This document shows positions 26,659-64,000 of a DNA stretch of 64,000 nt, piece after piece. A program made the translations under genes and the position numbers. Position 1 is the stretch's first letter. Every line of letters starts with the position of its first letter. Source of the DNA: Polyangiaceae bacterium (GTDB lineage: Bacteria > Myxococcota_A > Polyangia > Polyangiales > Polyangiaceae); contig JANXOF010000037.1 in assembly GCA_025353725.1 (NCBI GenBank), forward strand, positions 186,001 to 250,000. The letters are read 5' to 3'. The notes under the pieces are model-generated. The model did no database searches. It saw only the letters and a list, made by a program, of their open reading frames with translations, and was not told where the DNA came from.

Positions 26659-26696
26659 CAGCAGTCGAGGCCGTTCGCGAAAGTGGAGAGTTCGAA

Positions 26697-27887: not shown

Positions 27888-27898
27888 GACCCGCAAAA

Positions 27899-28051: not shown

Positions 28052-28053
28052 CG

Positions 28054-28074: not shown

Positions 28075-28079
28075 GCCAT

Positions 28080-28152
28080 AGGGGTTTAGCTCAGCTGGTA
28101 GAGCAGCGGATTCCAAATCCGCAGGTCGTGGGTTCGAGCCCCCCAGCCCCTG
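28080..28152 (+). tRNA. tRNA-Trp (anticodon CCA)
   Basis: The acceptor is AGGGGTT/AGCCCCT with discriminator G, and the anticodon stem-loop is GCGGATTCCAAATCCGC (CCA). It lies between rpmG and secE, the standard place for tRNA-Trp in many bacterial genomes. Confidence 0.97.
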
Positions 28153-46112: not shown

Positions 46113-46192
46113 GTTACGTCCTTACCTGACTTTCGCCTTAGCCTATGTTGGCTGTTCTGAGTAGCTACCTCCTGCAGCGGTCGTTGCTCACA

Positions 46193-46224
46193 CGATGCCC
46201 ACAAATAGTGGGCATCGCCGTTTT
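46193..46224 (+). terminator. Intrinsic terminator after rpsG
   Basis: A perfect 10-bp stem, CGATGCCCAC (46193-46202) / GTGGGCATCG (46208-46217), with loop AAATA is followed by CCGTTTTG. It lies about 80 bases past rpsG and should end the short rpsL-rpsG transcript. Confidence 0.75.
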
Positions 46225-46994: not shown

Positions 46995-47930
46995 CTAGCC
47001 CGCATGCTCGAAGAAGGCGCGGCAGTGATGCGGGCGAACGCGATGCCGGGCGGCGTTAGCCGTCTTGCGAAGCGCAGCCGCATTCCTGGGCGCGCTACGG
47101 CGAATGTGATGCTTTGCTAGATCCCAACATCGTTCGATAGGATTGAAGTCGGGTGAATACGGGGAAAGAAATTCGATACGGGCGCCGGGTGCCTTAACGA
47201 GGGTCGCGACGCGCGCGTTCGTGTGGGCTTGCGCGTTGTCCATGATCACCACGTCGCCCGGCCACAGCTTGGGGGCGAGTTGTCGACGCACCCAGGTCTC
47301 AAAGCGTTCGCCGTCTGCGGTCTTGAACATGCTGCTAGCGTGACCCATCCAGACGCGCGTACGGCGCCTATTATCGTCAAGTTGGTCTCCCGGTTCGTGG
47401 GGCGACCTTCGATTTGTTCGGTACCTCCAAGAATCCTCGCGTGGGTTCGCCCCATCGAAAGATTGGCGCCTGATTTATCGATAGAAACGAGATGGTCGGC
47501 TGCGAGTCGCGTCAACCGGCGCGCGAAGCTCGCGCGCTTTGCTTGGACGTCGCGACGAGATTGTTCGAAGTGACGAAGGCGCTTTTTTTGAAGACATAGC
47601 CTGCGCGACTGAGGGCGCGTTGAACGCTCGATCGGTGCACTCGAGCGGCTGTCGCGACGCGCTGATTGTAGGCGACCGTTAGCTCATACGTGGTCGCGTC
47701 TCGAAGCTCGACGACAAATTTCGTGAGCGCTTCGAGGTCGACGGGTGAAGAATCCCGCCACCCTTCCTGAGCGGCGCGACGCTATCGAACTCCCGCTTGC
47801 GCCGAAGCCATCGCTGGAGTGCGCCCGGAGCCACCCCAAAACGTGCCGCGATGACCGGATTTGGTTGTCCGCTACGCTCGTGCGCGCGGACGACTCGCTC
47901 TCTAAGGTCGATTGAATGCGGGGCAGGCAT
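46995..47930 (-). pseudogene. IS630-family transposase, frame-broken
   Basis: The pieces of one transposase lie in order on the minus strand but in different frames. The N-terminal helix-turn-helix (SIDLRERVVRAHERSG, ARFGVAPGALQRWLRRKREF) starts at 47930. A middle part (VVELRDATTYELTVAYNQRV, VQRALSRAGYVFKK) follows after a shift near 47760. The catalytic region with the first Asp (LVSIDKSGANLSMGRTHAR) follows after a shift at an A7 run (47583-47589). The second Asp and final Glu (VVIMDNAQAH, LSPYSPDFNPIERCWDLAKH) come after another shift near 47345. Slippage at the A7 run could be programmed, as in some IS630 elements, but the other two shifts are not at slippery sites. The element is therefore dead. 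Ends were not found. Confidence 0.87.
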
Positions 47931-47994
47931 GTGTTCCGCTCTTGATCACGCCCAGCGCATCCGTGCAAACGAACTATGGGATTGGTTCCTACCG

Positions 47995-48767
47995 TGACGT
48001 CTCCCCGCGTGGAACGCGTGCATAACCGTGCAGTGAGTGGTGCGCGTCTCGAGTCTTTCTCCCCGCGTCGTCGGCGTCGTGTGTTCACCGCGCAGGAGAA
48101 GCTTTGCATCCTTAAGGACGCCGACGCGGCGATAGCGTCTGCCGAGCGAGGTGCGCTCGAAGCGCTCATGCGCCAACGTGGCCTTTACAGTTCGTTGCTC
48201 ACGTCGTGGTGCTCCCACGTGGCCGCGCAACGCGCCGCGGGACTTACTTCGAGGAAGCCTGGACCAAAGCCGAAGGCGAGCGACGCTGAGCGGTGCGTCG
48301 TCGTGCTGACGAAGCACAATGAGGTACTGGAACGCCCACCACATAACGCCACAGCGCTACTGGAGCTGCTCCCAAAAAGCATGCACTCCTGGACATCGTC
48401 TTGCCCGTGAGCAACGAGGAAAGCTAATCGAGCTTGTTGAGGAACTCACGGATCCCGCCGTGTCTATGGCCGAGGCATGCCTTGCGCTCGGTCTCCGTCG
48501 CGCAACGCTTTATCGGTCGACAAGCCTAAAGGCGCCGCCAACATGGCGCGAGCAAGCGCCTTCTCTACGACGTCTGAGCCGCGAGGAGCGAGAAGCGATT
48601 CTCGATGTCATGCCCAGCGAAGAGTTCAAAGAGCAGCCGCGCGCGAGGCATTTGCAACACTCTTGAGTCGATGTACGTATCTCGCTTCGATTCGCACGAT
48701 CTACAGCATTCTTGGCTCCGTAGGCGAGTCGACAGAACGTAGAAACCAGCGTTTGCCGCATGTCTAG
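47995..48767 (+). pseudogene. IS3-like transposase relic (OrfA and start of OrfB)
   Basis: An OrfA-like part starts with GTG near 47995 (VERVHNRAVSGARLESFSPR, RRRRVFTAQEKLCILKDADA, ALMRQRGLYSSLLTSWCSH) and ends out of frame near 48370. An OrfB-like part (LVEELTDPAVSMAEACLALG, LRRATLYRSTSLKAPPTWR, REEREAILDVMPSEEFKEQP) continues in a second frame, then LLSRCTYLASIRTIYSILGS in a third, and stops at 48767 before the DDE catalytic domain. At least two frameshifts and a missing 3' half make it non-functional. Confidence 0.75.
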
Positions 48768-48947
48768 GCGAAGCCATCGTTGACGGCGACCGGACCGAAC
48801 CATGGATGGACACGGGATATTAGTATGCCGCATAAAGCGAGATGAGAGATGAGCGAATGACCCCTCGCAATCGGCTTGCAGCAGCAGGTTGCAAACCACT
48901 GCAAGCGGCTTGGGTCAAAAGCCCTGGTCGTGAGCGTTGCGGAAAAG

Positions 48948-49445
48948 GTGCCCGAAGGTATCAGGTGAGAATTAGGAAGGCGAACATACGTGAATTGTCG
49001 TTCAATTCTCGAAAGTAGTCAGATGACGTCAAAACTGAGTATCGATGTTAACCTGGGTTCAGCGTGGCGGGCACCTGTCTATTCACCACGCGGCGTCCTG
49101 CATAGCGGCAGCGCCAGCCTGATTCGGGCTCTCATGTTGACGTGCGGGAACCTTCGGTCGCGATGCAAAGGGAAAGGCATAAGCGCAAAACGCGAGGCCG
49201 ACATTACCGATGCGCGGCCAAAGGGCCAGCGCGACTCGTAGTAGCGCTGAAGTCGTCGTAATGGTGGTGGACCGAAGGGGTCGCGTTATCGGGTCGGACG
49301 TTTACGTCAATCGCGAAAGCGGGAGGAGCGAGAGCGAATGACAAAGTCCTTCGATGTATACAAGATGCTCGCCTGGAAGGCATTCCAACGTGTCAAACCA
49401 AAGGGAGGAAGTCCGGGTGTAGACCAGGAATCGAAGAGTTCGTTT
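48948..49445 (+). mobile_element. 5' fragment of a group II intron
   Basis: About 390 bases lie in front of a truncated group II intron reverse transcriptase start. A GTGCCCG at 48948-48954 fits the GUGYG-type 5' end of group II introns, though I cannot fold the RNA domains by hand, so this boundary is tentative. The fragment is cut at about 49445 by the IS21-family end repeats. No 3' intron part (domain V) was found on the far side. Confidence 0.5.
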
Positions 49446-49505
49446 TGCAGGGTAGTGCCGCCACGGCATTTGCATCTGGATGCCGCCACCAGCAAGAGGT
49501 TCTGA
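49338..49505 (+). pseudogene. Group II intron reverse transcriptase/maturase, N-terminal stub
   Basis: An ATG at 49338 after AGGAGCGAG opens a frame reading TKSFDVYKMLAWKAFQRVKP then KGGSPGVDQES. This is the typical beginning of group II intron-encoded proteins (motif GGSPGVD precedes reverse transcriptase domain 0/1). The protein then runs into IS21 end sequence and stops at 49505 after 55 codons, so almost the whole reverse transcriptase is lost. Confidence 0.7.
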
Positions 49506-49569
49506 CGGAGGGTTTGCAGGGTCATGCCGCCACTTGAGGGGTGATTTTTGCAGAGTCATGCCGCCAGGA

Positions 49570-49999
49570 AGCGGGTCGAGCGACCGAGCAGTGAAAGGGT
49601 TCGTTCCGAGGACGGCGCCGGCGCCGTTGGAAGGAATTCATCGCCTAGCGGGAGCTATTTATGATCGATGTAAAAATCTTCGCCGCTGGGCGGCGATGCA
49701 CAGTCACAGAAAGATTGCCCGCGAGACGGGCACGGATAGAGACACTGCAGCTCGCTATATCGCTGCCGCCGTGCAGCTGGCGGTGCTACGCGACCGCGAG
49801 TTGAGTGACCAAGAGATTCACGAGGTCGCTCAGGGCGTACAGGCGCGACCGCTACCCGGTCCGAGCGCGGAGCGGAAGGCTGTTGGTGCACACAAGGTAT
49901 ACATTGTCGAGTGGCTCGCAAAAAAGCGTCCCATGCGGCTCGGCAAGATCCGCACGCTGCTCGTGCGCGATCACGGGCTCGTCGCGAGCTACGAAACTG
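49570..49999 (+). pseudogene. istA: istA N-terminal fragment
   Basis: The frame carries the IS21 transposase helix-turn-helix (MHSHRKIARETGTDRDTAAR) and the following AKKRPMRLGKIRTLLVRDHG, then VASYET, where it breaks into istB sequence in another frame. About 150 residues remain of a protein that is usually 400-500, with the whole catalytic core missing. The start cannot be fixed. Confidence 0.7.
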
Positions 50000-50740
50000 C
50001 TCATCCTCACGGACGAGATCGCACGCCGCGACAACACGGCGGCAGATCTGCGCGCCACGACGGCTCGACTCGAAAGCTCGATGCGGCTCGAGACATGGGA
50101 AGAGATGTCGAAAGTGAGCTTCGACAAGCGAATGGTCGCGGAGTTGACGAGTCTCCGTTTTCTCGAAGCGCATCAACACGTCGTGGTGCTCGGGCCCGTC
50201 GGCATTGGAAAAACGCTTGTTCCCCAAGCCCTCGGTCACATCGCGTGCCGCCACGGCTACTACGTGCGCTTTACACGGGCCGACGAGATGTTGCGCAAGC
50301 TACGACAGAGTCGTTTCGACAACTCGCGCGAGCCCGAGATGATCGCGCTCACGTCGGTGGACTTGCTCATTATCGGTGACTTCGCGCTCGAGCCAATGAC
50401 GAAGGAGCAGAGTCGCGATGTCTACCAACTTTTTCTCGAACGCACCGGGAGAGGCTCGATCGTCGTGACCAGCAATCGCGACGCCGCCGAGTGGCTCGCG
50501 ACTTTCGATGAAGTGCTCCTTGCGCAGAGCGCGGTCGAACGTTTCAAAAACGCTGCCTACGACTTCATTGTGGAGGGCGAGTCGTATCGTTCACGGCTGA
50601 AGCCCACGCTTGACAGCGAAGGACCGACGCCGACGTCGCCCTTCCAAAGCCACGCACCTGGCCACGACGTAGAAGCTGACCGAGCCGCCATCCGCCGAAC
50701 GCATCAAGCCGCGAAGGCCGACGGCTGGGTCGCGGCATGA
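49999..50740 (+). pseudogene. istB: istB-like ATPase, 5'-truncated
   Basis: About 245 residues of the IS21 helper ATPase are present, from DEIARRDNTAADLRATTARL onward. It has Walker A GPVGIGKT, the family segment HGYYVRFTRADEMLRKLRQS and sensor region GSIVVTSNRDAAEWLATFDE. Roughly the first 40-45 residues are missing because a deletion joins istA directly to istB. The Walker B region reads LLIIGDFAL where LLILDDFAL is usual, so one acidic residue has become Gly. A longer open frame starts at 49805, but its first part is out-of-frame istA. Confidence 0.78.
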
Positions 50741-50891
50741 ACTGCAAAAAATGTTCCCGAAGCGGGATGTGGGGCGTACAAAAAATGGAGATCGATACCG
50801 AGGTCGAGACAGGGCACTTTTAGCTCGGTCGATCGGCCCATCCTCCTGGCGGCATGACCCTGCGAATAGGGTGGCGGCATGGGGTGCGTCA

Positions 50892-51166
50892 TAGGCCCCA
50901 AGTTGAGAACGTGCCACCGTGCAGGAAATACTCATCCGGTCGCGGACTGCGAAATGCTTCTAACGTCGTACGAGCCGCACGCGCCTGCCAACGGTAGGTT
51001 CGGTCAACGATCGACATAGGCATACAATCAGGCCTGGAATGAGAGTGATTCCTTCAAACGAACGAAACTCTCATGATGGATTACAACCGCGACTGAAGGC
51101 TATTGCCAAGATGAAGCTTGCAGCACCCCTCAACTAAACTTGAGGCAAATTTGCTGGCGATTTCCG
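50892..51166. other. Short unassigned stretch after the IS21-family element
   Basis: These 275 bases hold no supported gene. An AATGAGAGTGATTCCTT / CGAAACTCTCATGATGG pair around 51036-51080 contains the inverted segments ATGAGAGT/ACTCTCAT, which might be a small hairpin or a remnant end of another element. Confidence 0.35.
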
Positions 51167-53008
51167 TCAGCGTAACAGCGGCGGCGTTCCTCCCTCGTTG
51201 GGCACTGCGGCGTTGCGCATCCATATGTGAACGTCACCGAACGCACGAGCAGGATGGTATTTCGACGCCACCCAGTCAGCGCTTGCCACGCAGCAGTAGC
51301 GGAAGTCGTCCCACGCGTCTGGGTAGGAAATTAGAGGCGCGCGATCGATGAATACGAATGCCTCCGGGGGCGCTTCTTGCAGCCGGCTAAGCATGTCACG
51401 TTCATGGCTGTCCCGCGCGTCACGAATTTTCGCGGCTTCCATCGGATTCGGTCGACTCGACCAGCCACCGTCGAGAGCGGCGTCGTCATTTAGATCATAC
51501 GCGTAGATGTACGGGGTCGCGCTCTTCCTTTCCGCGAGAAACAAAAGATAAGGGTCCATTCCGTAAACCTGAATTTTTGCCATGCTGTCCGTCGACGCTC
51601 GCAGATAGGCAGCCGCTTGCCGCATCTCCCAAGGAAAAAAATCATGACTTTTGAACGTCTGGAAATACTCCTCGGTCTGCCGACGCTCAGCGGTTTCACC
51701 GCCGGACAGAAGCCACACATTGTGAAGCAGTGGCGAGCCTTTCATGCTTGCGGCGACCTCGACAGCATATGAAACCGTAACGAACAAGGCCGCGAGGCGA
51801 CCAAGAGAATTCTTTTGAGACACGCTTCTGAAACGTTCCCAAAGCATTGCTATAACAAGCAGGAATGCCAGACGGGTCGTCGCGCTGAGAGGGTGAAAGT
51901 GGTATCCAAATCCCTTATGCTGAACGACTACGTTCGCAATCGCGCAGACGGGAGCGAGCGCAACGACGAGAGCGCGACGTGGCAACTCGCGTGTAGCAAC
52001 CAACGCGAGGACTAAAGCGCACGCCGCCAGCCCTCCCACGCCAAGAAGCAATGGCCCATCGTCGCCGAAAATTTCCTGGCTACTCTTAGCCCAGATGAAC
52101 CTGTAGATTTGCGGAACGTCCAACAGAGAAATGCGAAGGAAGCTACTCAGATTTCCGAACACAACCAGATATCCTAGCGGCGCAAGGACGCCGAGTACGG
52201 CCCCAAAAATGAACCAAGCGAGCTTGCTTTTCCTACCTAAGCTCCAATCCTGGTCGACGAGCAGTACTGTCAATTGCATGAAAGTAAAGAGGGCGAAGCT
52301 AGGCTTGCCGAACCAGGTAATGCTTGACAACGCGGCGATACACATGATCTTCCCAGACTCTGCACGCGGTCCGGTGGACGTACGCGTAAGCTGGAGCGCG
52401 ATACTCGGCAGGAGGAACCAGTCGCAGAAACTTTCTCGCTGAGCCTGGTTCCAAGGGAGATAAAGCTGATATTGCCCGCAGAGCACAACGCAAGTGGCGA
52501 AGGCCCAAGTGACGCGCTCGAACCACTTCGGTCGAGAGCGCGAAGCTAGACCCGGTAGGCACCAGCCGGCGAACGCGAATGAGGCCCCGGTAACCGACAA
52601 GTCGAGGACGCGGAAACGATGCTCATCAGCGCCTCCAAGAGCAAGAAAAAGAAGGTGAATCATGTGAACAAGTGGGCCGTTCACGTCGCGGATATCGCGA
52701 TAGTCCACTTCGCCACGCCGCACCGCCCAAGCAACGTACTGAAAGATGCCTTGATCACGTCCCAAAGCGGCTAACGAGGCTCGGTAAGTCGCGTCGCCAA
52801 CCCAGAAAATCGGCAACAAGGCCAAAATCAAGGGCGCTAAAACGCGCCTTACCAAGTCGATGCGTGACTTACTGCTGGGCAACCAAAGTCTTCGGCGCGA
52901 CGTAAGCGTGCTCGCCGCTAAGGAGCCCCGAGGGGGACCCTCCCCGCCCGCTACCGCACCCCTCACAACTTTAACAGCAGGCTGCGGCACATCTTCACAA
53001 TCCAGCAT
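51167..53008 (-). CDS. Integral membrane glycosyltransferase-like protein (GT-C type)
   Basis: This 613-residue protein starts from the ATG at 53008; the frame continues to 53095 but the shorter start is likelier. There are about ten hydrophobic helices and a loop RDQGIFQYVAWAVRRGEVDY then RDIRDVNGPLVHMIHLLF near the first helix, similar to the acidic first loop of GT39-like lipid-sugar transferases. The C-terminal 200 residues are soluble and probably periplasmic. The role is unknown, with surface polysaccharide or protein glycosylation as the likely area. It stands inside the zone that separates rpsG from fusA and reads against both, unlike the broken elements beside it, so it seems intact cargo. 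Confidence 0.75.
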   Translation of the reverse strand: MLDCEDVPQPAVKVVRGAVAGGEGPPRGSLAASTLTSRRRLWLPSSKSRIDLVRRVLAPLILALLPIFWVGDATYRASLAALGRDQGIFQYVAWAVRRGEVDYRDIRDVNGPLVHMIHLLFLALGGADEHRFRVLDLSVTGASFAFAGWCLPGLASRSRPKWFERVTWAFATCVVLCGQYQLYLPWNQAQRESFCDWFLLPSIALQLTRTSTGPRAESGKIMCIAALSSITWFGKPSFALFTFMQLTVLLVDQDWSLGRKSKLAWFIFGAVLGVLAPLGYLVVFGNLSSFLRISLLDVPQIYRFIWAKSSQEIFGDDGPLLLGVGGLAACALVLALVATRELPRRALVVALAPVCAIANVVVQHKGFGYHFHPLSATTRLAFLLVIAMLWERFRSVSQKNSLGRLAALFVTVSYAVEVAASMKGSPLLHNVWLLSGGETAERRQTEEYFQTFKSHDFFPWEMRQAAAYLRASTDSMAKIQVYGMDPYLLFLAERKSATPYIYAYDLNDDAALDGGWSSRPNPMEAAKIRDARDSHERDMLSRLQEAPPEAFVFIDRAPLISYPDAWDDFRYCCVASADWVASKYHPARAFGDVHIWMRNAAVPNEGGTPPLLR

Positions 53009-53351
53009 GTTACAAACGCCCGGAGCGTAGCAGCTCTTGACACGGCGTGCAGAGTTGGTAAGACACGACGGCGACCGAGTTAACTGCAAGAGCAACGCAA
53101 TCGAATAGCAGCAAAAACATAAGGACTGGGCCCATCGGCCTGCACGAGCGTCTAGCTACCGCTAGACGACTTTCGCAGCCTAAGAATGAGTTCGGTACCC
53201 TCTCTGGACTTACCCTTGGCGTCACTTGCGCAGAGGGCCCCGCTGGAAACGGCAGCGGGACGGCCGGAGGGGGCTTTTTATATTTTGCATCTGCCGATTC
53301 GGTCCCCTGATAACCATTAGCCATCAGCCATCAGCCGACACGGAGATCCCA
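53009..53351. other. Leader region of fusA
   Basis: These 343 bases between the divergent glycosyltransferase and fusA hold no gene. They contain a perfect CGTCTAGC-TACC-GCTAGACG hairpin (53149-53168). Further on, a GC-rich block has CCCGCTG/CAGCGGG (53239-53245, 53253-53259) followed by GGGGGC and TTTTTA (53269-53280), a possible terminator/antiterminator leader. A promoter for fusA-tuf must lie here, but no clear -35/-10 pair was identified. Confidence 0.45.
53149..53168. repeat. Perfect 8-bp hairpin upstream of fusA
   Basis: CGTCTAGC and GCTAGACG surround a TACC loop. It lies between divergent genes, so it could be an operator or a bidirectional terminator-like stem without U-tract. Confidence 0.5.
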
Positions 53352-55469
53352 GTGGCTCGCGAATACCCGTTAGAGAAGACGCGAAACATCGGGATCATGG
53401 CGCATATTGACGCCGGGAAGACGACCACCACGGAGCGGGTGCTCTACTACACCGGGGTCAACTACAAGATTGGTGAGGTTCACGAAGGCGCAGCGACCAT
53501 GGACTATATGATCCAGGAGCAGGAACGTGGAATCACCATTACCTCCGCCGCGACGAATTGCTTTTGGGCACCAGTGGAGGGGCCTCACGCGGGAATCCGT
53601 CACCGCATCAATATTATCGATACACCCGGCCACGTCGACTTCACGATCGAAGTGGAGCGCTCGCTAAGAGTTCTCGACGGAGCCGTCGCGGTCCTCGATG
53701 GCGGTAACGGAGTCGAACCGCAAACTGAAACCGTCTGGCGCCAGGCAGATAAATTTTGCTTACCGCGCATCGTTTTTGTCAATAAAATGGACAAGACCGG
53801 CGCGGACTTCGAGATGAATGTCCACTCTATCCGCGAGCGTTTGGGCGTAATCCCGGTCCCCGTACAATGGCCTCTCGGAGAAGAAGAAAACCTGCGCGGG
53901 GTAATTGACCTCATCAAAATGCGTGCGGCTATCTTTGACGACGAGTCAAAGGGACAAACCTACACCTGGGGGGAAGTTCCGCCGGAATTGATGGATAAGT
54001 GCTCCCAATACCGCGAAAGGATGATCGAAGCCTGCGCGGACGTCGACGAAAGTTTGATGGCCAAGTACCTAGGCCCTAACCCCGAAGCGATAACTGAAGC
54101 GGATATCATCGCAGCGCTCAGAAAGGGATGCATTGCCTTTAAGTTCTTCCCAGTTCTCTGTGGGTCGGCTTTCAAAAACAAGGGGGTGCAACTACTTCTG
54201 GACGCCGTCGTAAACTTTCTTCCGTCACCGCTAGATATCCCGTCGGTGAGAGGAATAAGCCCCGAGACGGGAGCGGAAGAAGAAAGGAAAGCAGACGACC
54301 GTGAGCCGTTCGCTGCCTATGCGTTCAAGATTATAAACGACCCGCATGGGAACTTGACCTTCTTCAGGGTATATTCGGGAACGGTTCAGTCCGGGACCAT
54401 GGTTACGAATTCAACGCGGGGCAAACGAGAGCGTATGGGACGGATTCTCCGGATGCACGCGAACAAGCGAGAAGAGCTCAGCGAGGCCGACGCTGGGAAC
54501 ATCTATGCTGCAGTCGGCCTGAAAGATACACGGACGGGAGATACTCTTTCGAGTGAAGCTCATCCGATAATTCTTGAAAAAATGGTCTTTCCCGAACCCG
54601 TAATCTCGATTGCAGTCGAGCCGAGGACAAAAGCTGACGTGGAAAAGCTTGGAGTTGCACTCCAGAAGCTGGCAACGGAAGACCCGTCTTTTAGAGTACA
54701 CACTGACCCCGAATCAGGCCAAACCATCATCAGCGGAATGGGCGAGCTCCACTTAGACATAATATGCGACCGTCTGCGTCGGGAATTCAAAGTGGAATCC
54801 AACGTAGGGAAGCCTGAAGTGGCGTATCGGGAGTCCCTCGCGACGAGCACGCACTGCGAGTACAAGTACGCGAGGCAGTCCGGCGGTCGGGGGCAATTCG
54901 GCCACGTCGTGATGGAGATTAGCCCTGGCGAGCGCGGGCAAGGCTACGTTTTCGATAATGCAATAGTCGGCGGAGCAATCCCGAAGGAATTTGTCCCGGC
55001 AATTCAAAAGGGAGTGAGAGAGGCGATGGAGCGCGGCGTCCTTGCAGGCTTCCCAATCGCTGACCTGACCTGCCGTGTATATGACGGGAGCTACCACGAC
55101 GTTGACTCGAGCGCAGCAGCTTTCGAGATCGCAGCCTCCCTTTGCTTTCAGGATGGCGCCAAGAGAGCGGGTTTACACTTGCTCGAGCCTATAATGAAAA
55201 ACGAAGTTGTCGTCCCCGACCAATACATGGGGGATGTGATCGGTGACCTAAATTCGCGTCGCGGGAAGATTCTCGGGATGAACCAGCGCGGCAACGCGCA
55301 AGTCATCGACGCCGAGGTGCCACTCTCTACTATGTTTGGTTACGTAACCGACCTTCGGTCGATGACGCAGGGTCGGGCGACATCCTCGTTGCACTTCTCT
55401 CACTACGCCGCCGTCCCCGTCGCTGTTCAGGACGAGGTCGTCGCGAAGGTTCGGGGTACTTCGACTTAG
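53352..55469 (+). CDS. fusA: Elongation factor G
   Basis: This 705-residue translocase starts at GTG 53352 (GGAG 7-10 bases upstream), giving the family start [20 protein letters not shown]. It has P-loop [12 protein letters not shown], switch [26 protein letters not shown], and the domain IV region [14 protein letters not shown]; the C-terminus ends in the usual HFSHYAAVP region. It heads a transcript with the second tuf and the S10 genes, but is separated from its usual partners rpsL and rpsG by 7 kb. Confidence 0.98.
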
Positions 55470-55503
55470 CTAATTAGCAAACGAATGATATCGGGAGAGA
55501 GCC

Positions 55504-56694
55504 ATGGGTAAAGAGAAATTTCAGCGTAACAAGCCGCACGTCAACGTCGGAACGATTGGTCACATCGATCATGGCAAGACGACCCTGACTGCCGCGCTTG
55601 TAAAAGTTCAGTCGAAAAAAGGCCTTGCCAAAGCAATTAGTTACGCCGATATCGCAAAGGGCGGCACGGTGCGTGACGCAACGAAAACCGTCACAATAGC
55701 GGTGTCTCACGTGGAGTACGAGTCTGCGGCCCGTCACTACGCGCACGTCGATTGTCCGGGTCACGCTGACTACATTAAAAATATGATTACGGGCGCTGCC
55801 CAGATGGATGGAGCAATCCTCGTTGTTTCGGCACTGGACTCAGTCATGCCCCAAACACGCGAGCACGTTCTGTTGGCACGTCAAGTCGGCTTGCAAAATA
55901 TCGTCGTAGCGCTCAACAAATGCGACGCGGTCGACGATCAAGAAATGCTGGAACTTGTCGAGATGGAAGTGAGAGAACTTCTAAGCAAGTATAAGTTTCC
56001 CGGAGACTCTGCCGCCGTGGTGCAAGTAGCAGCGTTTCCGGCATTGAACGGGGAGCCAAAGTGGGAGGAGTCAATTGGCAAACTGCTGGAGGCTCTTGAC
56101 GCTCAGATTCCAACCCCCGTACGGGACACTGATAAGCCGTTCTTAATGGCTATCGAAGATGTCTTTTCAATAAAAGGGCGCGGCACAGTCGTTACCGGGC
56201 GCATCGAGCGCGGGATCGTGAAGACGGGCGAAGAAGTTGAAATAATCGGCTTCCGCGACACTCGCAAAACCACGGTCACGGGCGTCGAAATGTTCCGCAA
56301 GTTGCTCGACGAAGGCCGAGCTGGAGACAACGTGGGCGTGTTACTACGAGGAATTGAAAAGAACGATGTTGAACGGGGGCAGATCCTTTGCAAGCCCGGA
56401 TCTGTGGCGCCCCACAAGAAGTTCGAGGGGGAGGTCTACGTGTTAAAGAAGGAAGAAGGTGGGCGGCATACCCCCTTCTTTACGAATTATCGCCCCCAAT
56501 TCTACATGCGGACTACGGATGTCACTGGTACCTGCCATCTGCCGGAAGGGACCAAGATGGTAATGCCAGGCGACAATATACAAATGACAATCGAGCTCAT
56601 CACGCCGGTCGGTCTGGAAGAGCAGATGCGCTTCGCGATACGCGAGGGCGGAAGAACAGTCGGCGCGGGAATCATCACAAAGGTTCTCGAGTAG
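55504..56694 (+). CDS. tuf: Elongation factor Tu (copy 2, str operon)
   Basis: This 396-residue protein is identical to the copy at 26697 except for about six conservative changes (for example Asn for Thr at residue 9, Gln for Pro after DAVDD, and Ser for Thr after KFPGD). Silent codon differences between the two genes are very frequent along the whole length. It carries the same unusual switch I ([14 protein letters not shown]) and VAAFPALNG segment. A GGGAGAG Shine-Dalgarno stands before the ATG. It follows fusA by 34 bases and precedes rpsJ by 60. Confidence 0.98.
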
Positions 56695-56754
56695 ACTTGA
56701 CCATTCGGTCGCGCGTAGTTCTAGAAATATCCAACTCCACCTAAACGAGATAAA

Positions 56755-57072
56755 ATGGCATCAGCCACCACTATTCGCATTCGCCTTCGGGCATTTGATC
56801 ATCAGCTCTTAGATAAGTCTGCTAACGACATCGTAGAGACAGCGAAGCGCACCGGCGCTCGCGTGGCCGGTCCGATCCCACTGCCTACGCACATTTCGCG
56901 GTACACAGTGTTGCGTGGTCCGCATGTCGATAAAAAGTCCCGAGAGCAATTCGAGATTCGAACACACAAGCGACTTCTCGATATCCTCGAGCCCACACAG
57001 CAGACACTAGACGCTCTGATGAAGCTCGATTTGTCGGCGGGCGTCGACGTCGAAATTAAGACGCCGCGCTGA
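56755..57072 (+). CDS. rpsJ: 30S ribosomal protein S10
   Basis: This 105-residue protein of the small-subunit head also acts as the NusE antitermination factor. It has [20 protein letters not shown], the loop [20 protein letters not shown] and [15 protein letters not shown]. Its ATG follows tuf by 60 bases. It is first of the S10 group, but rplC, which normally follows it, is absent: rplD starts 12 bases later. Confidence 0.98.
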
Positions 57073-57084
57073 GGATGTAAAGCA

Positions 57085-57726
57085 ATGGCAATCCTAGATG
57101 TATTCAACCTGAAGCGAGAAAAGGTCGGCACTGTCGACCTGGCGGACGAAGTCTTTGCCACTGAGGTGAAGGAACAACTCTTTTACGAGGTGGTGAAGGC
57201 GCAGCTAGCCTCACGGCGCGCGGGAACCGCGTCGTCTAAGAATCGGTCCGAGGTTGCTGGCTCGACAAAAAAGCGAATCAAGCAAAAAGGCACCGGTGGC
57301 GCGCGTCACGGCAATGTCCGGGCCCCGATATACGTCGGTGGGGGGCAGGCTCACGGCCCGCGCCCACGTGACTGGTCCTACAGGCCACCGCGTCAGGTTC
57401 GGATCGGCGCTCTGCGCAGTGCGCTTTCAAAGTTCGCGATCGAAGGGCGTCTTTTAGTGGTCGACGCCTTCGCTCTCACCGAGATAAAGACGAAGACTGT
57501 CCTCGGCGCTCTCTCGGCTCTCAAGACCGATCGGAAGACGATGATAGTGGACAGCGCGTCGAACGAGAATCTCCGACTCGCAGTCCGCAACTGTAAGGAA
57601 CATCAGTTCATGCCGCCGGAAGGGGTGAACGTTTACGACCTTCTACGTTACGACACACTGGTGCTTTCTAAAGACGCAGCCAAGGCGCTCGAACTACGCT
57701 GCCTTTCGAGAGGGGGTGAAAAATGA
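57085..57726 (+). CDS. rplD: 50S ribosomal protein L4
   Basis: This 213-residue protein has the exit-tunnel loop [20 protein letters not shown] and [20 protein letters not shown], followed by a normal globular part with [18 protein letters not shown]. In E. coli, L4 also represses the S10 operon. It starts only 12 bases after rpsJ, so no rplC fits between. Its stop overlaps the rplW start (ATGA). Confidence 0.98.
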
Positions 57727-58022
57727 TTGCGACTGAAAATGTCATCCGCCGCCCGATTTTTTTAACAGAAAAGTGCAATATTCTACGTGCACAGAATCAG
57801 TTCGTGTTCGAGGTATTGCGTGGTGCGAACAAGATTCAAATCCGAAACGCCGTTCAAAAGCTTTTTGGGGTGAGAGTCGAGAGCGTGAATACAATGATCT
57901 ATCGCGGTAAGGACCGTCGGATGGGTCGGGGATATGCAAAGCTCCAGAATTGGAAGAAGGCCATTGTCACTTTGGCTGTAGGCGAGAACATCGACATGTT
58001 TGCAGAGACTCTGGAGAGCTGA
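57723..58022 (+). CDS. rplW: 50S ribosomal protein L23
   Basis: This 99-residue protein, the docking site for trigger factor and SRP at the tunnel exit, starts inside the last codon of rplD. It has [40 protein letters not shown] and the basic [20 protein letters not shown] loop. A Cys in TEKCN replaces the more usual Ser/Ala, which is harmless. Confidence 0.97.
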
Positions 58023-58023
58023 C

Positions 58024-58857
58024 ATGGCCCTTAAGAAATACAAGCCGACAAGCCCAGCGCGTCGCTATTATACGGGCTACGACTTCAAGGAGCTAACTCC
58101 GGGGAAGAAGCCAGAAAAGAACCTGCTCGAGCACCAAACGTCCACCGGGGGAAGGAACACCCACGGGCGGATAACGAGTCGCTTCCGAGGGGGAGGCCAC
58201 AAGCAGCGCTATCGGATCATTGACTGGTGCAGAGCAAAGATCGGAGTTCCAGCCACTGTAGCTTCCATCGAGTACGATCCGAACAGAACCGCTCGTATCG
58301 CTCTGCTGAGCTACGTCGACGGAGTAAAGACCTATATCCTCGCACCTGACGGTCTAAGTGTAGGCGACAAGGTAGTAGCGAGCCGAAACGCCGATATCAA
58401 ACCTGGTAACTCAATGCCACTGCGGCACATCCCGCTGGGTACCATGGTCCACAATATCGAGATGCGAAAAGGAAAAGGCGCGCAGCTCGTAAGGTCGGCC
58501 GGAACAGGAGCCTCGCTGATGGCTAAGGACGGCGATTACGCTCAGGTCAGGATGCCGTCTGGCGAGGTACGGATGCTTCACCTGGACTGTCAAGCGACGA
58601 TCGGGCAGGTTTCCAATATCGACCACGCTAATATCTCTCTCGGAAAGGCAGGGAGAACCCGGTGGCTTGGCAAGCGGCCCCACCAACGCGGAGTCTCAAT
58701 GAACCCGGTAGAGCATCCGATGGGGGGGGGTGAGGGACGAACCTCGGGTGGTCGTCATCCATGTTCACCTTGGGGACAACTCGCTAAAGGTCTGAAAACA
58801 CGCAATAATAAGCGGACAGATGGCATGATAGTCAAGCGTCGCGGACAGAAGGGTTAA
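58024..58857 (+). CDS. rplB: 50S ribosomal protein L2
   Basis: This 277-residue protein starts at the ATG at 58024, 1 base after rplW. It has [40 protein letters not shown] and the peptidyl-transferase-near motif [20 protein letters not shown] with the conserved His. The frame is open upstream into rplW but the shorter start matches the family. Length is standard. Confidence 0.98.
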
Positions 58858-58859
58858 CC

Positions 58860-59162
58860 ATGCCTCGGTCAATAAAGAAGGGTCCGTTTGTCGACGGTCA
58901 TCTGATGGAGAAGATCGCCGCTGCACAAGCGACGCAATCAAAGAAGGTGATTAAAACCTGGTCGAGGCGGAGCACAGTAGTGCCAGAAGCGATCGGCTTG
59001 ACGTTCGCCGTCCACAACGGAAGGAAGTTCGTTCCAGTTTTTGTTACTGAAAACATGGTAGGTCACAAGCTAGGCGAGTTCGCGCCCACTCGGACGTTTC
59101 ATGGTCACTCCGGCGACAAAAAGTCGAAGGTCAAGCAGGGCGGCGCTGCCGCACCGCGGTAG
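58860..59162 (+). CDS. rpsS: 30S ribosomal protein S19
   Basis: This 100-residue protein has [59 protein letters not shown] and a short basic tail. It starts 2 bases after rplB. It is followed by a terminator rather than directly by rplV, which is unusual for this operon. Confidence 0.98.
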
Positions 59163-59186
59163 CTCGAAGATTACTGAAAGGGAGAG

Positions 59187-59221
59187 CGCGGGACCTTCTG
59201 TGAAGCGGGTTCCGCGTTTTT
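59187..59221 (+). terminator. Intrinsic terminator inside the S10 cluster
   Basis: CGCGGGACC (59187-59195) pairs with GGTTCCGCG (59208-59216) over 9 bp with one G-U, then TTTTT (59217-59221). It begins 24 bases after the rpsS stop and has all the marks of a Rho-independent terminator. Confidence 0.75.
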
Positions 59222-59483
59222 CGTTGTCTCCGGGGACCGTGAGATTCTGTGCTCGAGGGAAGAAACCCGTTGCAATGCTGTTCGACTTCGCTACACTCCG
59301 CGCTCAGCAGTCTGACAACGGTTTTGCCACATCTCTGCGTGGCAGAGCGTCCGTGTTGGTAGCGGTATCTTGGCCGCCGTAACGGCCCTCACGTTTCCCC
59401 CAAGAGTCCCCGATCGGCGGTGCTCGTCGCGGGTAACTGGGGGTACGACGGGGTCTCGACACAGCTGGTGGTAGTTCCACCAA
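59222..59483 (+). other. Non-coding remainder of the rpsS-rplV gap
   Basis: The whole gap between rpsS and rplV is 321 bases, where the two are normally nearly adjacent. Besides the terminator and promoter listed separately, it holds no supported gene. A leader of about 180 bases would precede rplV, with GGCCGCCGTAACGGCC (59371-59386) as a small inverted repeat (GGCC/GGCC). Confidence 0.5.
59270..59297 (+). promoter_or_regulatory. Sigma-70-like promoter upstream of rplV
   Basis: TTGCAA (59270-59275) and TACACT (59292-59297) are 16 bases apart, about 190 bases ahead of rplV. Coming right after a terminator, this is a sensible restart point for the rplV-to-spc transcript. Confidence 0.55.
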
Positions 59484-59843
59484 ATGAAAGTAGTGTTTAT
59501 GGTATCGAAAGCGATCGCCCGCTTCGCGCGGATCAGCCCGCGAAAGGCAAGAATGATTGTCAACTTGGTCCGAGGCCGGCAGGCAGGAGAGGCTCTCCAG
59601 CTACTGCAGTTCACGGCGAAGGCTGGTGCGCCGGTTATATCGAAGCTCATCGAAAGCGCAGTCGCAAACGCGCGAGCTCTTTCTCCGGGAGGTGACTTAG
59701 ATGCTCTCTTTGTCGAAACTGCTTTCGTCGACAAGGCGCCCAATAAAAATATGCGTCGCTGGCGCCCTAGGGCGATGGGTCGTGCGACGCAGATTCAAAA
59801 GGGCATGAGTCACATTACAATACACTTAGGCACCCGCGAGTAA
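59484..59843 (+). CDS. rplV: 50S ribosomal protein L22
   Basis: This 119-residue protein, or 114 from the ATG at 59499, has [20 protein letters not shown] and the tunnel loop [20 protein letters not shown]. The extra start residues (MKVVF) precede the usual family start. It is the first gene after the terminator-promoter gap in the S10 cluster. Confidence 0.96.
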
Positions 59844-59850
59844 GGCGAAC

Positions 59851-60552
59851 ATGGGTCAGAAAGTTCATCCGTACGGCTTCCGGCTTGGCGTCATCAAGAC
59901 GTGGAATTCAAAGTGGTTCGAGGACAAGAACTACGCGAAGTGGCTGCATGAAGACATGCGCATCAAGCGAGCGGTAAAGGAGTTCCTCATGAACGCCAAT
60001 ATCGCTTCGGTGGAGGTCGAACGCGCCGCAAACAAAGCCAAGGTTATTGTTTTCACCGCGCGTCCCGGAATGGTTATCGGCAAAGGCGGCAAGGGGATCG
60101 AAACCCTCAAGGTGGGTAACCTAAAGTCCGCCGTAAAGGGCGAAGCGAAGTTTCCCGGAGTCCAATCGTTCACTGAGAATGAAGTCTTTATCGACGTTCA
60201 GGAAATACGAAAGGCCGAGACGTCTGCCCAGCTAGTTGCAGAGAATGTCGCGATGCAGCTGGAACGTCGTGTAGCGTTTCGACGAGCCATGAAGAAGGCG
60301 CTTTCGACGGCAATGAAGTTCGGTGCAAAGGGCATTCGGATTCGGTGCTCGGGCCGGCTGGGCGGTAGCGAAATGAGCCGCGTTGAGACATATCGCGAAG
60401 GACGCGTTCCGCTTCACACTCTGCGGGCTGACATCGAGTTCGGTCAGCACGAGGCGCGGACCAAATACGGGATTATAGGGGTTAAGTGTTGGGTCTTCAA
60501 GGGTGAGGTTCTCGCTCGGCGCCAGCGGCGTCCACAGATAGTTGGAGCTTGA
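59851..60552 (+). CDS. rpsC: 30S ribosomal protein S3
   Basis: This 233-residue protein has [20 protein letters not shown], the KH-domain GXXG in [17 protein letters not shown], and the C-terminal [18 protein letters not shown]. It binds mRNA at the entry tunnel. It starts 7 bases after rplV and has a normal length. Confidence 0.97.
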
Positions 60553-60563
60553 GGAGGTAAGTC

Positions 60564-61100
60564 ATGTCGCAGCTAGTTCCCAAGCGAACAAAGTACCGGA
60601 AGATGCAGAAAGGCAACAACCGCGGGACTGCATACCGCGGCTCAAATGTTGACTTCGGTGACTTTGCAATGCAGGCAACGGAGCCTGGTCGACTAACCGG
60701 CCGCCAGATCGAAGCGGCGCGGATGGCAATTACCCGCCATGTAAAGCGAGTTGGAAAGCTTTGGATTCGTATATTTCCTCATCGTCCAGTTACAAAAAAA
60801 CCGCTCGAAGTGCGAATGGGCGGAGGCAAAGGAAGCGTCGAGGAGTGGGCAGCAGACATTCTGCCGGGGCGTGTAATGTACGAAATTTCAGGGGTTGATG
60901 AAAAGACCGCCAGGGAAGCGTTTCGCCTAGCAGGACATAAAATTCCCGTAGCCTACAAGTTTCTCGCGCGAGGCGTTATTGAAGCTCTTCCGATTTCAGC
61001 TTCGACTAAGTCATTAGGACATTTTCCGTCCCGGAGCGAGTCCGCAGCGGCACATAGCGGTAAGCCTGGCATGGCCGTGACGGCTGGAGCGAAGATCTGA
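60564..61100 (+). CDS. rplP: 50S ribosomal protein L16, C-terminally extended
   Basis: A GGAGG stands before the ATG. The core is a normal L16 ([40 protein letters not shown]) with [17 protein letters not shown]; Arg84 corresponds to E. coli Arg81, the residue hydroxylated by RoxA/YcfD. At 178 residues it is about 40 longer than usual. The additional tail (residues about 138-178, rich in Ser, Ala, Gly and His) has no recognised domain. Confidence 0.97.
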
Positions 61101-61102
61101 AG

Positions 61103-61348
61103 ATGAAAGCTATAGATTTGTTTGGCAAGACCACGGAAGAGCTCCTCGAACTTGAGAAGCGCCAAGCTAACGAAAAATTCACGGCACGCTTCCATAACTT
61201 CACGAACCGTCTCGATGACACCAGTTCGATTGTTAAAGCGCGGCGCGATCTTGCTCGTATTAAGACCGTCATTCGCCAGAAGGTCTTCGGTGCCGCAGCT
61301 CCGGTTGCGAGCGACGGCCTAACTTCAATCGCCTCAAAAGAGAACTAG
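61103..61348 (+). CDS. rpmC: 50S ribosomal protein L29
   Basis: This 81-residue protein, two bases after rplP, has FGKTTEELLELEKRQANEKF and IVKARRDLARIKTVIRQK, the two helices of L29. A 20-residue Ala/Ser tail makes it a little longer than average. It contributes to the trigger factor docking site next to L23. Confidence 0.95.
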   Translation: MKAIDLFGKTTEELLELEKRQANEKFTARFHNFTNRLDDTSSIVKARRDLARIKTVIRQKVFGAAAPVASDGLTSIASKEN

Positions 61349-61350
61349 CT

Positions 61351-61719
61351 ATGGCTCCGATAAGTGGGAAAGAGGCAATGGTAGGAAACCGTAGCGTAGG
61401 ACTGGCTAAGGCGGAGCTCGGTATGCTCGACGATGTCCTGAATACGCCGGAGCCTACGGGTGCTCACGGGTTCCGGCGGAAGATGGTTGGAACCGTCACT
61501 AGTGACCGGATGGATAAGACGGTCGTGGTTGAGTGCATTACTGCTAGGCGTGATCCGCTGTACGGTAAGTACATTCGAAGCAAAACTCGATACAAGGCGC
61601 ATGACGGCATTAACCAGTATCGCTTGGGCGATAAGGTCGAGATCCAGGAGCATCGTCCGATTTCGCGCGATAAGCGGTTCATCGTGGTCCGTCTCGTAAA
61701 GAAATTCGTAGAGGAGTAA
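61351..61719 (+). CDS. rpsQ: 30S ribosomal protein S17, N-terminally extended
   Basis: This 122-residue protein has the normal S17 core at residues about 42-115 ([20 protein letters not shown] and [19 protein letters not shown]). The roughly 40-residue N-terminal extension has no recognised motif. Later Met codons at 61378 and 61423 could shorten it; the first ATG is 2 bases past rpmC, so it is the simplest start. Confidence 0.94.
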
Positions 61720-61723
61720 GTCG

Positions 61724-62092
61724 ATGATTCAGATGCGGACCACGCTGGAGGTCGCTGATAACAGCGGTGCAAAGCGAGTACAGTGCATAAAGGTGCTAGG
61801 GGGTTCGCGGAGGCGGTACGCCCGGCTCGGAGATATTATTGTCGTTTCAGTTAAGGAAGCGCTTCCGGGAACCAAAGTCAAAAAAGGTGAGACTGCAAAG
61901 GCAGTTGTAGTTCGCGTGAAGGACGACACTCCGCGAAACGACGGCAGCTCGATTCGTTTCGACGAGAACAGCGCGGTCCTGATCAACGCGCAGCTTGAAC
62001 CAATAGGGACGAGAATCTTTGGGCCGGTGGCGCGGGAGCTAAGGGCCAAAAAGTTCATGAAGATAATATCGCTCGCGCCCGAGGTGCTCTAG
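61724..62092 (+). CDS. rplN: 50S ribosomal protein L14
   Basis: This 122-residue protein has [40 protein letters not shown] and [18 protein letters not shown], all standard. It starts the spc-type gene group in many bacteria. Its stop shares one base with the GTG start of rplX. Confidence 0.98.
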
Positions 62093-62448
62093 TGACGGTT
62101 CAGCGTATCCAAAAAGGGGACACGGTTGTTGTCATCTCTGGCAAAGACCGGGGCAAGCAGGGGAAAGTCATGCGCGTCTTACGTGAGGACGGCAAGGTAT
62201 TGGTAGAGGGAATCAACTTGGTGAAGCGGCACACCAAGCCTAGCGCGCGCCTGCAACAAGGCGGCATCGTTGAACGTGAAGCGCCCCTGGCGGACTGTAA
62301 AGTCATGCTTCGTGACCCGGAAACGGGCAAGCCTACGCGCTGCCGTGTGAAGGTGAGCGAAAATGGCACGAAGGTTCGAATCGCTGTCATCAGTGGGGTG
62401 GAGATTCCGTCACCGCGTGTCGCTAATAGCGGTCCACGCGCCTTATGA
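62092..62448 (+). CDS. rplX: 50S ribosomal protein L24
   Basis: This 118-residue protein has the KOW motif (KGDTVVVISGKDRGKQGKVM) and INLVKRHTKPSARLQQGGIV. It starts with GTG at 62092, overlapping the rplN stop by one base. Length is normal. Confidence 0.96.
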   Translation: MTVQRIQKGDTVVVISGKDRGKQGKVMRVLREDGKVLVEGINLVKRHTKPSARLQQGGIVEREAPLADCKVMLRDPETGKPTRCRVKVSENGTKVRIAVISGVEIPSPRVANSGPRAL

Positions 62449-62459
62449 GGGCTTGAGTC

Positions 62460-63125
62460 ATGGCTGACCAGACGACAGAGAAGACCGACAAAAAAGATAA
62501 GAAACCTCGCGATCCGAAGAAGGGTCGAGATGCGGCTTCTGCGAGGGAGAAGCCGAAGGTTGTCTCTGAGAGTGCAGCCGTTCCTCCTCGCTTCGCCGAA
62601 AAGTATAAGGCGACGGCAGTGCCGTCGTTGCTAAAGCAGTTCGGTTATTCGAATCCGAACCAAGTGCCCAGGCTTCAGAAGATCGTGGTCAATATGGGAC
62701 TTGGTCAGGCAGTTACGAATCCGAAAATAATAGACTCGGCGGTAGAAGAGCTCAGAGCTATTACCGGTCAAAAGCCAGTGGTTACCCGTTCCAAAAAAGC
62801 GATCGCTAGTTTCAAGCTGCGGGCTGGGCTTCCGATTGGAGCGATGGTGACGTTGCGGCGGGACCGCATGTGGGAATTCTTGGATAGGTTCATCACGATA
62901 GCTCTACCCAGGATGCGGGATTTCCGCGGTGTATCCCGGCGGGCTTTTGATGGCCTTGGCAATTATACTATCGGCCTAAAAGAGCAGATAATCTTCCCCG
63001 AGATAGACTACGACCGAATCGACGTAATAAAGGGGTTGAACGTTTCGTTCGTGACGTCTGCGCGCACTGACGAGGAGGGGCGCGCACTTCTTCACCACAT
63101 GGGAATGCCCTTCCGGGCGACCTGA
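62460..63125 (+). CDS. rplE: 50S ribosomal protein L5, N-terminally extended
   Basis: This 221-residue protein has a core from about residue 42 ([50 protein letters not shown]) and ends in [20 protein letters not shown]. The first 40 residues, Lys/Asp-rich, are an added tail not present in E. coli L5. It binds 5S rRNA. Confidence 0.96.
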
Positions 63126-63156
63126 CGACAGTACCCGGAAAAAGGAGATAGAAGTT

Positions 63157-63342
63157 ATGGCCCGTGCTTGTCAGTTTGCAAAGCTCAATCGAGCGCCGAA
63201 ATTTGCGGTGCGTCATGTTAACCGTTGTAAGGTGTGCGGGCGCGGTCGCGCCTACTACCGTAAGTTCGAACTCTGCCGTATTTGTTTACGGCTCTACTCT
63301 CTCCGCGGTGAGATTCCCGGTGTGATTAAGGCGAGCTGGTGA
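63157..63342 (+). CDS. rpsN: 30S ribosomal protein S14, zinc-binding type
   Basis: This 61-residue protein has [19 protein letters not shown] with CKVC and then [20 protein letters not shown] with CRIC, giving four Cys for a zinc site. This is the short, zinc-binding form of S14. AAGGAG lies ahead of the start. Confidence 0.97.
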
Positions 63343-63346
63343 TTCG

Positions 63347-63760
63347 ATGATGACCGACCCCATCTCCGATATGTTGTCTAGGATTCGAAATGGCTCGCTT
63401 GCGCGTCATGACCGAGTCGAAATGCCTCATTCTACTCTTAAGTTTGCGCTCGCCCTGGTGCTGAAGGGCGAGGGGTATATCGATGAGGTGCGCGAGAGCA
63501 GTGCTGAGGGTCCAAGGACTCTCACCTTAGTATTGCGGTATAACCGCGAGAAGTCCTCTGCGTCTGAGAAGCAGAGCGCAATTGACGGCGTGAGGAGGGT
63601 TTCGGCCCCTGGACGTCGTGTATATGTACGCTTCGATCGCATCCCGCGCGTGCGGAGCGGCATGGGGATTTCGATTCTCTCCACAAGCCGCGGTGTAATG
63701 GCTGACCGGCAGGCGCGTGAACAGCGTGTCGGCGGCGAGCTCCTCTGCGAGGTTTGGTGA
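63347..63760 (+). CDS. rpsH: 30S ribosomal protein S8
   Basis: This 137-residue protein has MTDPISDMLSRIRNGSLARH and the C-terminal GMGISILSTSRGVMADRQAR. It may start at the second ATG, 63350. It binds 16S rRNA helix 21 and often represses the spc operon. Confidence 0.97.
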   Translation: MMTDPISDMLSRIRNGSLARHDRVEMPHSTLKFALALVLKGEGYIDEVRESSAEGPRTLTLVLRYNREKSSASEKQSAIDGVRRVSAPGRRVYVRFDRIPRVRSGMGISILSTSRGVMADRQAREQRVGGELLCEVW

Positions 63761-63765
63761 GAAAT

Positions 63766-64000
63766 ATGAGTACGTCCTCTATTACCTCTGGTGGTTTGGC
63801 TACCGGTGTTAGCTCTCTCGCATCTGTCCATTTGAAACAGTCCAGGGTTGGCAAGCAGCCGATTCCCTTGGTAGCAGGGGTTACTGTTTCCATTGCGCAC
63901 GGTTCGATTTCGGTTCAAGGGCCTAAAGGTGCCTCGGTACGTCAAATCAGTCCAAACGTTTCTGTTACAATTTCAGCTGGGCAGGTTTCTGTCGCTCCGA
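63766..64000 (+). CDS. rplF: 50S ribosomal protein L6 (partial, runs off the window)
   Basis: The ATG at 63766 opens a frame that stays open to the edge. After about 24 Ser/Thr/Gly-rich residues it reads SRVGKQPIPLVAGVTVSIAH and SISVQGPKGASVRQISPNVS, the start of L6. The leading residues are longer than in E. coli L6. Confidence 0.93.
   Translation, partial: MSTSSITSGGLATGVSSLASVHLKQSRVGKQPIPLVAGVTVSIAHGSISVQGPKGASVRQISPNVSVTISAGQVSVAP

Follow-up and report, generated by a model that had tools for sequence, protein, structure and literature searches.

A predicted separate rplV transcription unit with a conserved leader RNA in the S10-spc cluster of Polyangiaceae, and S8 as its candidate ligand

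The S10-spc ribosomal protein cluster in the window (the whole stretch of 64,000 nucleotides of Polyangiaceae DNA analysed here) appears to be divided between rpsS and rplV into two transcription units, the second of which is probably controlled by ribosomal protein S8 through a leader of its own, an RNA that would mimic helix 21 of 16S rRNA. Computational comparison shows a predicted two-unit anatomy, separation of the two halves in relatives, a conserved putative promoter, a covarying RNA before rplV and, in nested genera, canonical S8-type sites. In the proposed mechanism, the first unit would end at a terminator past rpsS, and the second would start at a promoter with a GC-rich discriminator, which would place a leader of some 180-195 bases before rplV. 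A hairpin with an internal loop in that leader would mimic the S8 site of helix 21, and S8 in excess of free 16S rRNA would bind it and lower the rplV-to-spc unit, which encodes S8, a feedback that probably serves to balance the output of this half. In E. coli, S8 is described as repressing the spc operon, from rplE (PMC10931766), and PMC7247131 states that, in every case its authors know of, the ligand of an r-leader is encoded by a gene under the control of that leader.

The two predicted units are parted by 321 bases (59163-59483), exactly as the first-pass annotation of this DNA had given it, between the end of rpsS at 59162 and the first rplV start, an ATG at 59484. Because the rplV starts of relatives align to the ATG at 59499 and not to that at 59484, the true gap may be 336 bases. 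The same annotation had called the gap long relative to the usual near-adjacency of these genes, and this holds against the 14 bases from rpsS to rplV in E. coli K-12. From 5' to 3', the gap contains a predicted terminator, a predicted promoter, a conserved RNA and a small hairpin-like stretch (GGTGGTAGTTCCACC) directly ahead of 59484, after which rplV begins (Table 1). The hairpin, the hexamers and the length had all been recognised at first pass, but the conserved leader RNA that fills the gap had been overlooked. Downstream, in the run from rpsC to rpsH, S3 and S17 are named by Pfam and S8 and L5 by NCBIfam, the others from position and sequence. The host genome is a 6.6 Mb draft. Among named records its closest relatives are Labilithrix and others of the Polyangiaceae or Myxococcales, with rpsC identities of 96% and below, and the naming of the order as Polyangiales is based on them.

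Table 1. Coordinates of genes and predicted elements at the rpsS-rplV junction, as positions of the window
Feature	Position	Strand	Remarks
rpsS (S19)	58860..59162	+	PF00203, E 8e-38; closes the tuf-rpsJ-rplD-rplW-rplB-rpsS unit
Intrinsic terminator (predicted)	59187..59221	+	9 pairs including one G-U (G-T in DNA), 12-base loop, T5
Promoter of the rplV unit (predicted)	59270..59305	+	TTGCAA, 16 bases, TACACT, GC-rich discriminator CCGCGCTC
Conserved leader RNA (A-type)	59372..59455	+	Model R1, 57.4 bits (window among the training rows); covariation
A-type outer helix, GGC/GUC	59372-59374 with 59453-59455	+	
A-type P1, CCGU/ACGG	59377-59380 with 59448-59451	+	
A-type conserved loop, AACGG / UACG	59381-59385 / 59444-59447	+	
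A-type P2	59386-59391 with 59438-59443	+	
S8-site-like core, 5' strand	59382..59386	+	A59382 (595), C59383 (596), G59384 (597), C59386 (598)
Two extra bases of the S8-site-like core	A59381, G59385	+	Template fit needs two insertions
S8-site-like core, 3' strand	59443..59447	+	G59443 (640), U59444 (641), A59445 (642), C59446 (643), G59447 (644)
rplV (L22), first gene of the second unit	59484..59843	+	PF00237, E 5e-31; probable true start 59499
rpsC, rplP, rpmC, rpsQ, rplN, rplX, rplE, rpsN, rpsH	59851..63760	+	ORFs; remaining S10 cluster fused to spc genes
rpsH (S8)	63347-63760	+	Matches NF001109; carries the STS tripeptide

The omission of rplC from the first-pass gene list was correct, as L3 is absent from the S10 cluster and encoded elsewhere in the genome. 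The gene is missing between rpsJ and rplD at window positions 57072-57085 (G000:C70:1063-1965, L211), and likewise from all seven other clusters that span the rpsJ-rplD join (L206-L210, L213, L214), where the gaps are about 12-30 bases. The L3 of the window genome (TIGR03625) lies on another contig, adjoining an ORF that reads like L19. Elsewhere in the window, ORFs resembling rpsL and rpsG are about 7 kb from fusA (46113-53225), and the interval between them holds a group II intron D1-D4 match at 48851-48966 and ORFs that by eye resemble transposase and IstB-type ATPase pieces. Five tRNA genes are found by Rfam at 26122-28152, four of them inside 540 bases.

The predicted terminator has the 9-bp stem and T5 that had been claimed for it (CGCGGGACC, 59187-59195, with GGTTCCGCG, 59208-59216; T5 at 59217-59221), which is to say a GC-rich hairpin and then a T run past the last gene, the form expected of an intrinsic terminator. 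The hexamers had also been read correctly, with TTGCAA at 59270-59275, 16 bases, and TACACT at 59292-59297. A single-sequence consensus scan lists neither feature, because the terminator loop exceeds the limit of the scan and the hexamers match at only 4 of 6 positions each; over 54000-64000 the scan gives 13 terminator-like sites (10.3 expected) and four promoter-like sites (5.2 expected). By single-sequence consensus, then, the putative hairpin and hexamers are not above chance, and it is comparison with relatives that lifts both above it.

Within 160 bases past rpsS, a terminator-like hairpin with a T run occurs at 25 of 33 loci, that of the window included, where shuffles predict 5.9. For the promoter, a pattern written after inspection of the leaders (TTG[ACT], a spacer of 16-18, [CT]ANNNT and a GC-rich discriminator) is present in 25 of 32 rplV leaders, against 0.32 expected from shuffles, and the spacer is 16 in all 25; the seven leaders without the pattern include all three from family f8. 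Two hexamers at a fixed spacing, kept in relatives, are the features of a sigma-70-type promoter.

The separation of rpsS and rplV was surveyed in 58 genomes of the order, 36 in the family of the window and 22 from other families, with distances taken between gene matches (the rpsS match of G001 is a 23-residue piece). In the family, both genes were found in 32 genomes. They lie on different contigs in 17 of these, partly through assembly breaks, and on the same contig in 15, where 11 genomes have them 1.8-39 kb apart and four, including that of the window, within 330 bases. Single-chromosome records place rpsS and rplV at 1.70 and 12.85 Mb in Sorangium So0157-2, at 1.11 and 9.32 Mb in Sorangium So ceGT47 and at 9.03 and 10.85 Mb in Minicystis rosea; with the genes megabases apart, rplV there cannot be transcribed from the S10 promoter. 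In up to 1.5 kb of sequence, rplV was not found in 28 of 30 rpsS loci (that of the window and L017 excluded). Family relatives usually have a terminator and unrelated genes after rpsS, and the genes between rpsS and rplV appear by eye to be unrelated in G007 and G020, the two genomes listed in full. Among the 22 genomes from other families, the two genes are 29-280 bases apart in 15 and neither was found in two, while in five, from families f6 and f8, the genes are on separate contigs or at a distance of 7.7 kb.

The physical split of the S10-spc cluster is thus well supported computationally. The first-pass suggestion of two transcripts, divided between rpsS and rplV, draws support from the separation in relatives together with the conserved predicted promoter beside rplV. 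Whether relatives keep the gap has a mixed answer, in that a short gap of 231-353 bases with a leader is present in L067, L071, L074, L075 and L083, but most family genomes have the genes separated. Because relatives are separated and the window genome is comparatively small, the short gap of the window may itself be secondary. Taken further, the gap could be a remnant, left by a deletion that re-joined the units into what is now one read-through transcript, with the terminator and promoter as relics. Such a history would accord with the 1.8-39 kb between the parts in many relatives and with a 6.6 Mb genome that is smaller than nine of the 11 same-genus genomes listed, yet it is quite improbable given that the window retains an intact promoter spacing, terminator stem and leader core, and that the five loci just named also keep a short gap with the leader. 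A different arrangement is seen in one 3.5 Mb genome of the family (G022:C2:81570-82238, L017, L213), which has rplV 48 bases past rpsS and neither promoter nor leader seen at the rpsS-rplV junction; it has either reverted to the old gene order or kept it as a relic.

Two transcription units are the preferred reading, and the promoter of the second may be older than the split. In 12 genomes of other families with close genes, a pattern also written after inspection (TG[CT]TA[AG]A and a GC run) is found in seven gaps, where shuffles predict 0.03; it is absent from four gaps shorter than 60 bases and from one other. As these gaps hold a promoter-like pattern while the genes are still close, the promoter between rpsS and rplV probably preceded the physical split. 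GC-rich discriminators are typical of stringently controlled promoters, and the one found here suggests, by analogy, added growth-rate or stringent control of the rplV unit.

Downstream of the conserved putative promoter lies the A-type RNA element, in which a covarying helix encloses the loop UAACGGC/GUACGA. When 32 leaders were aligned by MAFFT without structure, RNAalifold recovered P1, the loop and P2 from the alignment, with changes on both sides at seven of 11 pairs. In the named structure 92.6% of cells are paired, a share that drops to 31-47% if the structure is slid along by 1-3 columns. Cells with both-side changes number 64 versus 17.4 after shuffling, and 0 of 500 shuffles are as high on any of five measures; the shuffle counts are inflated by related sequences, whereas the slid control preserves relatedness. 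Because the rows were chosen by TAACG and CGA, the constancy of those letters is partly built in. The helices are not built in by this choice, though the list was made with an earlier helix scan in view, and the pairing register of the outer helix, columns 7-9 against 96-98, had been chosen by eye from alignment A1 ahead of the covariation test.

In 108 family genomes, model R1 gives 32 strong matches (E <= 7.9e-8), one per genome, most of which are training leaders or near-copies. All 32 are within about 205 bases upstream of rplV and on the same strand, one of them overlapping the start of the rplV match. Below this set, two matches in the 108 genomes have E <= 0.01, one at rplV and one elsewhere; weaker matches (E 0.0035 and above) lie elsewhere than rplV, except for that of G070, and those in the 58 relatives (E 0.0087 and above) also lie elsewhere and are judged to be chance. 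Under strict filters, R1 has no match in 75 of the 108 family genomes, and eight of the 108 are without an rplV match. A secondary structure backed by covariation and a consistent position upstream of a ribosomal protein gene are two characters that the element shares with r-leaders, and the predicted RNA element and promoter are both well supported computationally.

It is very improbable that hairpin, hexamers and leader similarity are chance occurrences in an ordinary long intergenic stretch. The consensus scan at background would be in keeping with chance, as would the window strand alone, which folds weakly better than its shuffles (z -1.96, with 10 of 200 as good), but covariation not equalled in 500 shuffles, a promoter pattern in 25 leaders where 0.32 were expected, and the placement of all 32 strong matches speak against it. 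For the hairpin and hexamers taken by themselves, chance was considered and is ruled out by the covariation, promoter and terminator comparisons with relatives.

The 79 named loci comprise 26 leaders of a short form, 20 of a long-loop form (by a loose rule), five of a B form and 28 with none. In a tree rooted at midpoint, the short, long-loop and B forms all fall in one clade of 56 (support 100/100), with the B form nested inside; five rows without a leader are also in this clade, L063 among them with too little upstream sequence to tell. The long-loop leaders L097-L106 (Sorangium, Polyangium) have an extra conserved pair, GGCCGCCG and CGGTGACGC, inside the big P2 loop. A second CTAACGG copy is present in L044, L049 and L050, 18-34 bases before the core TAACGG.

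The S8 site has been described as a seven-base internal loop with triples, A595-(A596-U644) for E. coli or G595-(C596-G644) for T. thermophilus, in which 642 is the invariant S8-contact adenine; S8 binding is retained by an aptamer that has one more core residue on the strand facing away from the protein (PMC4176348). A template built from features published in that paper, requiring 4 or more pairs per helix, has one match in E. coli 16S rRNA, falling exactly on 598/640 in helix 21, and one match in the 16S rRNA of G047 (AAGU/AAACU). The spc mRNA site that E. coli has at rplE escapes it, probably because the two strands come in opposite order there, and the same template, with this known site missed, detects no S8 site in the operon body of the window (59481-63999).

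The window loop fits the template at C-G 596-644, G-C 597-643, U641 and A642, plus two extra bases on the 5' strand. C-G 596-644, G-C 597-643 and A642 are constant in 32 of 32 A-type rows, and position 641 is U in 28, A in three and C in one, in rows selected partly by letters that are scored as S8 core (TAACG, CGA). With two extra bases allowed, a variant chosen after seeing the data, the template fits 17 of the 32 at the looser setting and 16 at the stricter; with no extra bases the counts are one and zero, and with one extra base, zero. The canonical loop has exactly one unpaired base (595) on the 5' strand, a size that A-type lacks. Against the 16S and 23S rRNA of G047, the best R1 match is a 23S stretch and not helix 21. 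That stretch (L174, GGCGGCCGUAA...ACGG) shares GGCCGUAA and ACGG with the leader, at 11.4 bits and E 0.11, and is possibly a coincidence, possibly another mimicry. Helix 21 of the lineage was read in G047 only; 16S rRNA was not found for Sorangium or Minicystis, nor in four of five genomes including that of the window. Because the fit is post hoc, the loop size is off and neither model picks helix 21, the A-type loop is not classed as a canonical S8 site; the proposal is that it works like one.

In nested sister genera, the B-type leaders have a near copy of the helix-21 S8 site located on the rplV ribosome-binding site. Five of six hand-picked B-type leaders fit the strict template, where 0.15 would be expected. 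Model R2, built on the six, finds 18 places in 16 of the 108 genomes, all overlapping or abutting the rplV match, and 11 of the 18 lie outside the training set. The 16 distinct sequences all have AAACU as their 3' strand, and the 5' strand is GGGU in 11, AAGU in three (as in the 16S rRNA of G047) and GUGU in two; U stands opposite U at 596-644 in two of the 16. These sites have the features of a canonical S8 site, namely the exact loop, the flanking helices, A642 and G597-C643. Given two 16S sequences, R2 singles out helix 21 in neither. In two genomes rplV occurs at two loci, and each locus has a B-type site (G104: C54, C82; L217, L231. G087: C431, C382; L228, L232), and the two sites of G104 are identical, perhaps because of mixed strains in one bin.

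The two leader types would differ in how bound S8 acts. In B-type leaders it would block the ribosome-binding site directly. The A-type element is 24-224 bases from the rplV start, variable among leaders, so simple occlusion of the ribosome-binding site cannot be its general mode, and an effect on folding or stability would be needed. This variable distance, like the conserved GC-rich discriminator, could also be accommodated by a structured leader that binds no ribosomal protein and serves as a stability, anti-termination or ppGpp-linked element, with regulation at the promoter. Such a leader is improbable here, in view of the constant internal loop within covarying helices, the B-type S8 sites on the ribosome-binding site and the placement of every strong R1 match before rplV.

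A more serious competitor, though still unlikely, is a genuine r-leader of the same anatomy in which the A-type loop binds a different protein encoded in the block, with L22 the simplest choice (or S3, L16, L24, L5). In its favour, rplV is the first gene at all 32 strong R1 matches, although the identity of the first gene reportedly says little about the ligand (PMC7247131) and none of the 20 leaders in Table 1 of PMC7247131 is assigned to L22. The A-type loop is not an exact S8 site and R1 does not find helix 21, both of which would fit another ligand, yet the loop agrees with the S8 site at six core positions. The nested B-type sites might be a replacement that came with a change of ligand, but they also put canonical S8-type sites at the same gene in sister genera.

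With S8 as the probable ligand, a wider history may be considered, tentatively and at slightly less than an even chance. Control across the clade may have been rewired, with an internal promoter between rpsS and rplV arising first, then a new S8-binding RNA with an enlarged loop that assumed control of the rplV-to-spc genes from their front end, and then the break-up of the elsewhere widely conserved S10-spc cluster to distances of up to megabases, the cluster having fallen apart because control no longer depended on linkage. On this view the A-type loop would represent a natural S8 recognition fold of a new kind, and in one nested group a site resembling that of rRNA, located on the ribosome-binding site, would have taken its place. 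The clade offers a testable S8 leader in two forms and a natural range of arrangements in which the S10 and spc halves are anything from joined to far apart. It may also provide a case of how a very conserved operon can break, with promoter and autoregulation in place before separation.

The leader RNA of the split rplV unit matches no known family searched. At gathering score, Rfam finds only the five tRNAs and the group II intron piece in the whole window and nothing in the gap, where three sub-threshold matches were judged to be chance; it gives no family match for the loci of eight relatives, and one B-type stretch is without a match up to E 10. Neither leader type is among the 20 leaders tabulated in PMC7247131, and no description of a split S10 cluster or of such a leader in Polyangiales was found in the open-licence literature searched, PMC8046335 included.

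Three known systems offer comparisons. The L4-controlled S10 leader of E. coli is likewise an autogenous leader of an S10-cluster operon, but it lies within the 5' UTR that heads the entire S10 operon, and its ligand is L4, as described in PMC10931766, whereas the Polyangiales element would serve a half without rplD. The alphaproteobacterial L2 r-leader candidate (rplB, rpsS, rplV, rpsC; Table 1 of PMC7247131), rated borderline by Eckert and Weinberg in 2020, is also a structured leader inside the S10 cluster and covers rplV and rpsC; compared by description and not by alignment, it differs in starting at rplB, in lineage and in its assigned ligand. The third is the E. coli spc S8 site at the start of rplE, with helix 21, which has in common the presumed ligand, a core of 596/644, 597/643, 641 and 642, and a place in an mRNA that encodes S8. 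The E. coli site lies inside the operon at rplE, whereas the Polyangiales element is in the 5' leader before rplV, and the window type has two extra bases on the 5' strand. The unit that the element heads joins S10-distal genes to spc genes, unlike the spc operon of E. coli.
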